This document shows positions 2,845 to 7,768 of a DNA stretch of 39,690 bases, one piece after another. Source of the DNA: a virus; IMG/VR virus record IMGVR_UViG_3300008516_000249, positions 1 to 39,690 of that record; one strand, written 5' to 3'. How positions within the stretch are numbered: the first letter of the stretch is position 1; each line of letters begins with the position of its first letter. The position numbers and the translations under genes are program-made. Under the pieces are notes generated by a model. That model ran no database searches, was not told the origin of the DNA, and was given only the letters and a program-made list of their open reading frames with translations.

Positions 2845-3633
2845 ATGACAGGCTGGTTTAAACTCTGGCGATATCTTTTTAAAAAACCTATTTGGCTTAG
2901 GTCAAATCCAGAACAGAAAACTGTTCTTATTGCCCTTATGGGGATGGTTAATTATGAATCTAATCAATGGGAATGGGGAGGAAAAAGGTTTGATTTAGTA
3001 CCCGGTCAAGTCATTACATCATATGCTAATATCCAACAAAGGTGTGGAAGCGGTATAAGTCAACAAAACGTAAGATCCAGCATAGCAAGATTCAAAAAAT
3101 TGGGATTTCTAACAAGCGAATCAACAAACGCTGGGACATTAATAACTATAGAGAATTGGGGTATTTATCAAGGTGATGATCCTGATGTCAACAAAGTAAT
3201 CAACAAGTGGCCAACAAACGGCCAACAAACGGCCAACAAACGGCCAACAAAGCAACCAACACCTATTAAAGAAAAGAATAAGAATATAAAGAATATAAAG
3301 AAAGAAGAGATACCCAAAAAATCATACCGTGAATTTGTCACTTTAACAGAAGGAGAATACCAAAAACTTATTTCTAAATTCGGTAAGGATAAAACAGATA
3401 AGATTCTTGATAAGCTAAATAATGCTAAAGGCTCTAAGGGTTATAAATATGTATCTGATTATCATGCTATCTTTTCATGGGTGCTTAAGGAGGTAGAGAA
3501 AGAAGAGATAACCCAGGACCAAAAGGGTACAACGATGGCCTGCAAGCAATGTGGGGATAGTGGGCGGTATATCAATATTGATGAGGATGGATTATGCGCC
3601 GGTTGTTTGACCAAGAATTTATCCGCGAAATGA
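2845..3633 (+). CDS. Phage replication initiator with winged-helix and zinc finger
   Basis: 262 residues. The N-terminal part (MTGWFKLWRYLFKKPIW..., VPGQVITSYANIQQRCG, ISQQNVRSSIARFKKLGFL, ITIENWGIYQ) matches the winged-helix N-terminal domain of phage replication organiser proteins. Residues about 117-145 are a low-complexity N/Q/T/P/K linker encoded by 11-bp DNA repeats. The C-terminus has a four-cysteine zinc motif (C233, C236, C251, C254). The DNA repeats inside the gene resemble an origin embedded in an initiator gene, as in lambda O. No helicase gene is visible in the window, so the host helicase is probably recruited. Confidence 0.78.
   Translation: MTGWFKLWRYLFKKPIWLRSNPEQKTVLIALMGMVNYESNQWEWGGKRFDLVPGQVITSYANIQQRCGSGISQQNVRSSIARFKKLGFLTSESTNAGTLITIENWGIYQGDDPDVNKVINKWPTNGQQTANKRPTKQPTPIKEKNKNIKNIKKEEIPKKSYREFVTLTEGEYQKLISKFGKDKTDKILDKLNNAKGSKGYKYVSDYHAIFSWVLKEVEKEEITQDQKGTTMACKQCGDSGRYINIDEDGLCAGCLTKNLSAK
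3209..3252. repeat. Four tandem 11-bp iterons inside the initiator gene (candidate origin)
   Basis: GGCCAACAAAC begins at 3209, 3220 and 3231, and a fourth copy at 3242 ends in G instead of C. The 11-bp period is not a multiple of three, so each copy is read in a different frame, yet all are near perfect. That argues for conservation of the DNA rather than the protein. Isolated CAACAAA matches lie upstream at about 3035, 3060, 3121 and 3189. An A-rich, unwinding-prone tract (about 3266-3316) follows directly. Confidence 0.7.
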
Positions 3634-4039: not shown

Positions 4040-4111
4040 CCCCTGGCAAGATAGACAACCTTAATCGATTGTCTTTATGGATGGCCTCCACAAGCTGTTG
4101 CTTGCTAGGGG
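4040..4111 (+). promoter_or_regulatory. Structured leader able to sequester the HNH ribosome site
   Basis: CCCCTGGCAAG (4040-4050) pairs with CTTGCTAGGGG (4101-4111) over 11 positions with one G-U pair. Inside, AGACAA (4053-4058) pairs with TTGTCT (about 4069-4074). The right arm contains AGGGG, the likely ribosome site of the GTG at 4120. A competing small stem CAAGC/GCTTG (4091-4104) would free it. RNA occlusion of homing endonuclease ribosome sites is known in T4-type phages; here it is inferred from pairing alone. Confidence 0.5.
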
Positions 4112-4119
4112 TAAAGGGG

Positions 4120-4743
4120 GTGACTATAGAAAAAAAACAAAGAAAAACATATTATAAGATAAAGAGAACCTGGAATGAAGCACATCCCGAAAAGGTCAGA
4201 GCAAGCAGAAAAGCTTGGAACATCAGAAATCCTGATAAAGTAAAAGCACAAAAACAAGTTTGGCGTAAAAGGAATAAATTAAAGTTAAAACTACAAGCTA
4301 AAATTTATCATCAAACCAATAAAGAAACTATAAAGTTACGGAAGAAAATATGGTATCAAGCTAATAAAGAAAAAATACAAGCATCTCAAAAAACGTACTA
4401 TGAGGCTAATAAAGAAAAAACAAGAATTTGGAAAAAAGCTAATCTTGAAAAAGTTCGAGACTATAATCGTAAACGCCGCGCCTTAAAACATACCACACAA
4501 ATTGAGCCTATAAATGAAAAAATAGTATATTTTCGGGATGGAGGAATATGCCAGCATTGTAGGAAACGAATTAATAAAAAGCTTGAGTGGCCTCACCCTA
4601 TGAGTGCCAGCTTAGACCATATAGTCCCATTGAGTGAGGGAGGGGCTCATATATATAAGAATTTACAGTTGGCACATTTGGGATGTAATTTAAGTAAAAA
4701 AGTTGCTATTTTACCTCAAGGAGAACAATTGAGAATGTTTTAA
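4120..4743 (+). CDS. HNH endonuclease with repeated basic N-terminal region
   Basis: The C-terminal third carries an HNH zinc-finger nuclease: CQHC, then SLDHIVPLSEGG (catalytic DH), NLQLAHLGCN with the paired zinc Cys and conserved Asn. The N-terminal two thirds are lysine-rich repeats around KxWYQANKEK / KTYYEANKEK, probably extended DNA-contacting helices. GTG at 4120 has AGGGG eight bases upstream and is preferred over a TTG at 4069. Free-standing HNH genes like this are usually mobile homing endonucleases. It ends exactly against a leftward gene (stop 4743, opposite stop 4744). Confidence 0.82.
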   Translation: MTIEKKQRKTYYKIKRTWNEAHPEKVRASRKAWNIRNPDKVKAQKQVWRKRNKLKLKLQAKIYHQTNKETIKLRKKIWYQANKEKIQASQKTYYEANKEKTRIWKKANLEKVRDYNRKRRALKHTTQIEPINEKIVYFRDGGICQHCRKRINKKLEWPHPMSASLDHIVPLSEGGAHIYKNLQLAHLGCNLSKKVAILPQGEQLRMF

Positions 4744-5117: not shown

Positions 5118-5618
5118 TTAAACTACCTTGAAAGGTTTATCCCATTTGCCTATATTCAGGTGCAGATAAAAGTTAGTGTTGAAATAGTCAATCATCCCAT
5201 CTGAATCATCATAATTGTAAGAAGTTGATATTTGGCTGACCTTTTTCATACAGTCCCAAGCTTCTTTTGTTAGTTGGCATCCATTATTCCACCCTTCAAT
5301 TGGATAGGCGTTTTCATATGGTTCTTTGAAGGTGTATTGGTTTAATTGGGAGTAGGCTTCGTATGTATAACCTTGATCTTCCATGCTTTGAAATCCATGG
5401 TTTCCAAAAGAGCCCTTTTTAATTATTGCTTCAAAAGGTGCCTCCATTAATGAGATATAAAGAGACTGGCCCATTGAATACCTCTGAATCTGCACACTAA
5501 ACTTGCATTTTGGGTATTCTTTCTTGAGGTTAGTTTTTATGATCTTGGCAATTTCTTTAATGTCAAGATCCCGATTGTAGTTTTTGCCTTCCCATCCGTG
5601 GCCTGTGTAGTTTTGCAT
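5118..5618 (-). CDS. Hypothetical protein, 166 aa
   Basis: Leftward gene with TAAATGGAGGATAAGAA directly before the ATG. The text (ITSLY-free, with IKEIAKIIKTNLKKEYPKCKFSV near the N-terminus and many Tyr/Asn residues) resembles large-polyvalent-associated or LPD-type domains seen in phage and plasmid proteins, where D..IKEIAK.IR..LK..YP..KFSV is common. Length 166 residues. Assignment to such a family is tentative; function unknown, possibly carried on delivery of larger proteins in relatives. Confidence 0.7.
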   Translation of the reverse strand: MQNYTGHGWEGKNYNRDLDIKEIAKIIKTNLKKEYPKCKFSVQIQRYSMGQSLYISLMEAPFEAIIKKGSFGNHGFQSMEDQGYTYEAYSQLNQYTFKEPYENAYPIEGWNNGCQLTKEAWDCMKKVSQISTSYNYDDSDGMIDYFNTNFYLHLNIGKWDKPFKVV

Positions 5619-5632
5619 TTCTTATCCTCCAT

Positions 5633-5722
5633 TTACAGGTTAACTTCATACCACCTTCCAAGATAGAAGGCTATTAATATTAAGGCTGAATTGCCTATGC
5701 AGTAAATGATGAAGTCCATCAT
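5633..5722 (-). CDS. Small single-pass membrane protein, 29 aa
   Basis: Leftward ORF with CAGGAG upstream of its ATG. The peptide MMDFIIYCIGNSALILIAFYLG has one long hydrophobic segment and a short tail RWYEVNL. It sits between two longer leftward genes and leaves little space on either side, in keeping with the compact cluster. No function is recognised. Confidence 0.5.
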   Translation of the reverse strand: MMDFIIYCIGNSALILIAFYLGRWYEVNL

Positions 5723-5778
5723 TGTATGCTCCTGTTTAACTCTCATACCTACCCAGCTGGGAATGGGCAGGGTGAAGG

Positions 5779-5970
5779 TTAAGCCTTCTCAATCACATTG
5801 ACAGTCCATCCTATATTTATAAGGTCTTGAACTTGTTGAGTAGTGAGACAATTACCAACTTGATAATCAATGCTATTCTTAAGGGACTTAATACGGAAAT
5901 GGTCTTTTTCATATCCCCACGATCTTATGTCTACAAGGTTGATTGTGGGTTTAGTGTGTGGATGTGACAT
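5779..5970 (-). CDS. Hypothetical protein, 63 aa
   Basis: First gene of the leftward cluster. The ATG at 5970 follows TAAATGGAGGATAAGAAC; an upstream in-frame ATG at 5985 lies inside the ribosome site and is unlikely to be used. The C-terminal part (CLTTQQVQDLINIGWTVNVIEKA) suggests a short alpha/beta fold. No helix-turn-helix is evident, so it is not an obvious repressor. Confidence 0.65.
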   Translation of the reverse strand: MSHPHTKPTINLVDIRSWGYEKDHFRIKSLKNSIDYQVGNCLTTQQVQDLINIGWTVNVIEKA

Positions 5971-7285: not shown

Positions 7286-7768
7286 ATGACAAACCAACAA
7301 ATCATAAAAGCTTATGTTAAAGACCTCATTCCCATCATTAAAATCGCATCCACCCTCCATGTTACCAGACAGTCCATATATAGATTGCTTAGGAAACATG
7401 GGGTCGATACCTCAAAATCCAGACGTATTGAAGTTAAATGCCATTACTGTGGAAAATCTTTTCTTAAAAAACCTTGCCAGGTTAGACGGCGTAAGTACCA
7501 TTATTGCACTTTTAGGTGCTACCTGGACTGCATAGAAGCAAAAGGACAAGGTTATGTTCAAAACAGGCATGGTCAGAGAAGGGTAAGGGTTCTTGTCAGT
7601 AAGCATTTCGATCTTCAAGACGGTATGATAGTCCACCATGAGAATAAGGATACCCTGGATAACCGGCTAACCAATCTCAGGGTATTTAAGGATCACAGTG
7701 AACACATGAGATATCACAGGGGAGGAGAGGCTATTCCTCTGTGGGATGGGAGAAATATACAATCTTAA
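7286..7768 (+). CDS. HNH endonuclease with N-terminal helix-turn-helix
   Basis: 160 residues. Residues about 4-38 (IIKAYVKDLIPIIKIASTLHVTRQSIYRLLRKHG) form a resolvase-like helix-turn-helix. A treble-clef zinc motif follows (C52, C55, C74, C78), then an HNH_3-type nuclease VHHENKDTLDNRLTNLRVF (HH at 117-118, Asn126, Asn130). The arrangement is typical of free-standing phage HNH endonucleases. It has its own promoter and GGAG ribosome site, consistent with a separately acquired mobile gene. Confidence 0.85.
   Translation: MTNQQIIKAYVKDLIPIIKIASTLHVTRQSIYRLLRKHGVDTSKSRRIEVKCHYCGKSFLKKPCQVRRRKYHYCTFRCYLDCIEAKGQGYVQNRHGQRRVRVLVSKHFDLQDGMIVHHENKDTLDNRLTNLRVFKDHSEHMRYHRGGEAIPLWDGRNIQS

Follow-up and report, generated by a model that had tools for sequence, protein, structure and literature searches.

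The initiator gene of the virus studied here very probably carries, within its own coding sequence, a replication origin of the lambda/phage L type. Positions refer to the window, that is, the whole 39,690-nt stretch of DNA that was analysed (IMG/VR record IMGVR_UViG_3300008516_000249). The assignment is based on an array of 11-bp repeats in the linker between the two protein domains, on conservation at the DNA level, on fixed geometry and on covariation between these iterons and the codons of the wing in the winged-helix domain; that the initiator binds there, that the strands open, that a helicase is loaded and that the region acts as an origin are predictions. Hundreds of related phages keep this predicted layout, with copies of the repeat in their wing codons. 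An origin inside an initiator gene is already known, as is one case of 11-bp repeats (phage L). For a family-wide 11-bp rule, and for wing-coded iterons that follow the letters of the linker, we found no description in the open-access literature; an earlier one is possible.

The initiator protein matched PHROGs profiles for a replisome organizer (phrog_13246, 1.6e-24) and a DnaD-like phage helicase loader (phrog_2514, 3.6e-24), and showed kinship to the O-like replication initiation profile (phrog_345, 1.2e-7). One of its relatives, HSA84, matched O proteins at about 1e-6. In the AlphaFold2 model, the recognition helix spans residues 73–85, followed by the first (89–94, LTSEST) and second (97–102) wing strands and by a helical domain at 169–234. 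The replisome organizer match covers residues 112–239, and the C-terminal domain is presumed to recruit the helicase or primosome. Past the predicted helical domain, the CxxC...CxxC motif (CKQCG ... CAGC; 3539–3610) may form a small zinc site. A PDB sequence search with the initiator gave nothing significant, and a fold search with its model returned generic winged helices with Z up to 8.7, none decisive. The structural neighbours included 4pql and 4pt7, which we take to be pSK41 Rep, at Z 7.6–7.7, the level of generic winged helices. The RepA_N domain of Pfam (PF06970) was not matched by the window protein.

No helicase or loader gene adjoining the initiator gene was identified in the part of the ORFs that was surveyed. 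Upstream genes (505–2409) matched nucleoside deoxyribosyltransferase, phosphoadenosine phosphosulfate reductase and phage DNA repair (MmcB-like) families, and two HNH endonuclease-like genes lie downstream (4069–4743 and 7286–7768). Just 5′ of the initiator gene are two 9-bp tandem arrays, at 2469–2498 (GTACTTCTG, 3.3 copies) and 2574–2604 (GGTATGAGA, 3.4 copies). The genome is almost wholly plus-strand apart from an ORF on the minus strand (5118–5618) with an LPD29 domain match (2.3e-13). GC skew, named in an earlier sequence-only reading of this DNA as a check on the origin, showed no inflection at 3.2 kb; all 1-kb segments were non-negative, and the measure was uninformative because nearly all genes are on the plus strand.

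Table. Coordinates of the initiator gene and of the proposed origin elements within it
Feature	Position	Strand	Basis or remark
Initiator gene, 262 aa: winged-helix N-terminal domain, linker, C-terminal domain	2845..3633	+	ORF; PHROGs matches; AlphaFold2 model
Winged-helix domain DNA, residues 1–109	2845..3171	+	pLDDT mostly >90
Wing-coded core 1, AACAA, codons 89–91 CTA ACA AGC	3111..3115	+	Covaries with linker iterons in relatives
Wing-coded core 2, AACAA, codons 93–95 TCA ACA AAC	3123..3127	+	12 bp after core 1; covaries likewise
Linker iteron core 1, AACAA	3190..3194	+	67 bp after wing core 2
Linker iteron core 2, AACAA	3202..3206	+	Sequence
Array as first reported: GGCCAACAAAC, three copies exact and a fourth with a single mismatch; cores 3213, 3224, 3235, 3246	3209..3252	+	
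Degenerate final core, AACAC	3258..3262	+	12 bp past preceding core; sequence
A+T-rich tract with AAGAATATA repeats, candidate DNA-unwinding element	3263..3312	+	82% A+T
C-terminal part, presumed helicase/primosome-recruiting domain	3313..3633	+	Ends in CxxC...CxxC motif

The iteron DNA sits between the codons of the N- and C-terminal domains, where AACAA starts at 3190, 3202, 3213, 3224, 3235 and 3246, in steps of 12, 11, 11, 11 and 11 bp. Four 11-bp iterons had been proposed in the sequence-only reading. The repeats are real and three copies of GGCCAACAAAC are exact (3209–3219, 3220–3230 and 3231–3241), but the fourth (3242–3252) ends in G and matches at 10/11 positions, and the array is larger than was reported. 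Its 11-bp periodicity (39/44 positions) occurs nowhere else in the window. CAACAA[AG] words are found six times in the linker against 1.5 expected from synonymous recoding, a count that 0/2000 recodings reached. Since 11 is not divisible by 3, successive units fall in different frames and all three frames are used, as had been noted (peptide NKWPTNGQQTANKRPTKQPT).

Viral contigs, genomes and phage records supplied about 340 loci for comparison; clustering on the winged-helix domain gave 161 representatives with domains <70% identical. A single-sequence scan of viral_contigs found no relatives, whereas alignment-based scans did. The scan patterns were placed at the N-terminus or beyond the wing strand and therefore did not select for wing iterons or linker DNA. 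The best linker period was 11 bp alone in 96 of the 161 representatives and 11, 22 or a tie with 11 in about 130; 12 bp was best in 16 and 9 bp in seven. The mean best match among the 161 was 23.95/30 in linkers, compared with 17.1 when these were recoded synonymously; DNA coding for the domain scored about 11.4. Linkers exceeded synonymous recoding at p ≤ 0.05 in 144/161 cases, where representatives within one cluster share ancestry and the core thresholds and regular expressions are our own choice. This excess agrees with the earlier view that protein selection alone is insufficient to explain the repeats.

The repeat letters differ among relatives although the period is kept, and their linker peptides are alike in composition. 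At the same place, 11-bp repeats of other letters occur in close relatives from Listeria, Bacillus and Lactobacillus phages and from a Terrisporobacter genome. Across 33 arrays of the window's group, 100/126 steps were 11 bp and 25/126 were 12 bp; the gap from wing to linker was mostly 66–67 bp, and nearly the same geometry (66–67, 12, 11 and 11 bp) recurred. Free variation of the repeats in relatives had been proposed as a test of the origin, and they were not free: the 11-bp period at the DNA level and the geometry were kept while the letters changed. Two distant relatives have inverted-repeat words after the winged-helix domain (GGTAC/GTACC in L104; GAGTA/TACTC in L109), not 11-bp direct repeats.

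The A-rich tract of about 50 bases noted after the iterons was recovered 3′ of them, and ranks in the top 0.12% of the window's 50-mers by A+T. In relatives, the DNA past the array is 74% A+T compared with 62% in the rest of the gene. Codon usage in the relatives' tract is also shifted: AAG makes up 61% of Lys codons against 31%, ATA 80/118 of Ile codons and GTA 74/113 of Val codons, choices that A+T content alone does not explain. The words AAAGAAT, CAAGAAT and GAATGTA likewise exceed synonymous expectation there. Since the codon bias and these 7-mers go beyond what the peptide requires, they suggest that the tract is a DNA-level element, plausibly the unwinding region.

Two further AACAA cores lie in wing codons (Table), outside the coordinates given in the sequence-only reading. 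The linker 8-mers of each locus were matched to its own domain-coding DNA and compared with the linkers of other loci. Own linker 8-mers fitted the wing codons better than foreign linkers did (t = 14.5), whereas the rest of the domain and the reverse strand gave no comparable own-linker signal. The match persisted in 39 representatives <50% identical (t = 7.4), was equal across the three reading frames and was stronger than with a synonymously recoded wing (t about 13). The signal was present in all four sub-alignments, with a strength that varied by subgroup. Iteron-like words also occur in the helix-turn-helix codons of the window (3033–3043 and 3060–3070); across relatives, covariation is faint there (t about 2), perhaps a chance effect. 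In one distant relative (L105), the wing codons contain four copies of GCGGAAC spaced 12 bp apart (peptide GTGSGTGSGTVRGT), and the linker repeats this word at the same spacing; one in-frame unit is thus common to both.

The coupling was resolved letter by letter. In the window's subgroup (44 sequences), the first letter of the linker core (A or G) tracks the third base of the wing Leu codon and of the Ser-position codon, 7/7 against 0/37 for each (p = 2.6e-8 each). A slightly different counting rule moves the ambiguous sequence L257 and gives 36/1/0/6 (p = 1.1e-6). Three core letters were followed over 56 sequences from three subgroups: the first goes with the third base of the codon ahead of each Thr position (p = 3.9e-9 and 3.2e-7), the fourth with the choice of ACA or ACC for Thr (p = 5.1e-10 and 5.8e-8) and the second with the replacement of Thr by Ala (p = 3.2e-5); all these Fisher p values overstate the evidence because sequences are treated as independent. 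Periodic-core counting was used because a crude letter count was noisy in groups A2/A3; it misreads L089, whose sequence has GACAA cores. On a tree built without the wing columns, each trait changed six times, and in a sign test 3/3 supported pairs agreed, three pairs being too few to reach 0.05. The tree count and the set <50% identical are the safer support for covariation. Agreement between wing and linker is limited to core positions 0–4, of which the search pattern constrains positions 1–4 and leaves position 0 free, and is absent in the flanks. The link is thus a DNA-level coupling through synonymous third bases and not a similarity of peptides.

What the coupling means for the wing is less certain than the coupling itself. 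Tentatively, and at less than even confidence, we propose that the wing strand codons are functional iterons and that the residues they encode help to read the same core, the reading of the core by these residues being putative. It is unlikely that the wing sites bind the initiator yet are dispensable for replication, with a minor role at most. Such dispensability fits the loci with one good wing match or none, the degenerate copies in some wings and the statistical nature of the signal; however, control segments in the same gene and of like composition gave no comparable match, and the 7/7 versus 0/37 letter match in the window's subgroup implies sustained selection. We give little credence to non-functional leftovers of gene conversion or duplication between wing and linker. 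This would account for words common to both within each genome, but the lack of agreement in the flanks of the 5-bp core argues against copying, the wing spacing stays at 12 bp while that of the linker is 11 bp, and the same position is kept in lineages <50% identical.

If functional wing iterons are borne out, a single mutation would alter both the site and its reader; for example, a change of AACAA to GGCAA would turn the wing Thr codon ACA into the Ala codon GCA. The specificities of initiator and origin would be coupled, easing the birth of new replicon specificities across phages. The wing-coded iterons overlay two codes at the segment likely to touch DNA, offering a directly testable case of a DNA-binding protein and its sites changing together.

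For the repeats as a whole, the most likely role is binding of the initiator protein to start DNA copying. The N-terminal winged helix would bind the short core (AACAA here; RRCMR as the family form) on one strand every 11 bp, and since this spacing is about one helical turn, initiators would be aligned along one face of the DNA. An ordered complex could then form over the six to seven linker cores and the two wing cores 67 bp upstream. This nucleoprotein complex is predicted to open the A+T-rich tract just downstream (3263–3312), and the C-terminal domain would recruit the replicative helicase in the manner of O at lambda ori. The binding, opening and loading steps are modelled on lambda O and plasmid Rep systems.

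Two other explanations of the linker repeats were weighed against the origin. Binding of the initiator to repress its own transcription or translation, rather than to initiate replication, seems improbable. The sites do lie within the gene that encodes the protein, and covariation reveals a shared recognised word, not the effect of binding it. Against autoregulation, the sites are deep in the coding region and not at a promoter, a constrained A+T-rich tract follows them, and in homologous or analogous genes origins with experimental support occupy the corresponding place (PMC5499656, PMC5703833). A low-complexity T/N/Q/K-rich spacer peptide expanded by slippage, with no role for the DNA, is scarcely credible: slippage can make exact tandem copies and linker composition is alike across relatives, but the period is no multiple of 3 and exceeds synonymous recodings in 144/161 lineages, and synonymous letters in the wing track those of the iterons. 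Pure slippage or a peptide spacer was rejected at the DNA level by these frame and synonymous tests.

An embedded origin of this kind would bring scattered reports of phage origins within initiator genes under one sequence rule, an 11-bp-phased RRCMR core with an A-rich tract. Such a rule could be used, with sequence as the only input, to find origins in many phages and to predict the specificity of their initiators.

Several known systems share parts of this arrangement. PLE RepA resembles the window initiator in that its DNA-binding domain and its iterons vary together (PMC8263062). Unlike in the window, the PLE origin is intergenic, its iterons are semi-palindromic and about 30 bp long, and covariation arises by domain swapping and not through the initiator's own codons (PMC8263062). 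RepA_N plasmid initiators such as pSK41 Rep resemble the window in having a winged-helix N-terminal domain and repeats centrally within the initiator gene. In pSK41, the Rep boxes lie centrally inside rep and the linker is dispensable for the protein; pPR9 carries, as a single block, a phage-like DNA-binding domain and origin in place of the pSK41 ones (PMC5703833). The best period in RepA_N genes was 23 bp in 7/12, compared with 11 bp in the window; with this mostly 23-bp period and no RepA_N Pfam match in the window, they were rejected as members.

The replisome organizer genes of 80alpha (ORF20) and SPP1 (gene 38), like that of the window, have an origin proposed or shown inside the gene (PMC5499656). 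Complementation of 80alpha ORF20 in trans failed, and an origin inside ORF20 was proposed (PMC5499656). The Staphylococcus phage 80alpha gene has other repeats and no evident 11-bp array, unlike the window. Both 80alpha and lambda were rejected as direct members, since their repeats differ.

In the lambda O gene, as in the window, the origin lies in the initiator gene, with iterons between the N- and C-terminal domains and an A-rich tract on the 3′ side. The lambda-ori-like layout claimed in the sequence-only reading held for the winged helix, linker iterons, A+T tract, C-terminal domain and O-like/DnaD-like homology; it did not hold for the repeats. Lambda has four annotated 18-bp iterons about 20–24 bp apart, whereas the window has more copies of an 11-bp repeat with a 5-bp core, and no wing-coded iteron was seen in lambda by eye. 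A distant protein kinship is shared, between the window protein and the O-like PHROG and between a relative from Staphylococcus and lambdoid-phage O proteins. The window origin would thus work like lambda ori without being lambda ori proper. Small 5.87-kb Salmonella Infantis plasmids (L359 and L357; NZ_CP148820 and CP148862) resemble a natural lambda-dv-like plasmid, with CI/Cro/CII-like genes, ParA, a truncated unannotated O-type initiator and no other annotated replication gene. In L359 this initiator (5363–5872 and onward across the record start) consists of the N-terminal domain and the repeat linker.

Phage L, a P22-like phage, has six 11-bp repeats in gene 18 that were called its likely origin (PMC8022706). 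Its gp18 was reached only through the relative HSA84 (E 9e-8) and was not listed in a direct search with the window protein. The repeat letters differ from those of the window, covariation is unreported for phage L (PMC8022706), and its wing-coding DNA gave at best 7/9 matches by eye. As in the window, the 11-bp direct repeats (TGTCCAACGGA) lie between the DNA-binding and C-terminal parts. Phage L is therefore a closer parallel than lambda, because the window has 11-bp direct repeats with a 5-bp core and not 18-bp elements.
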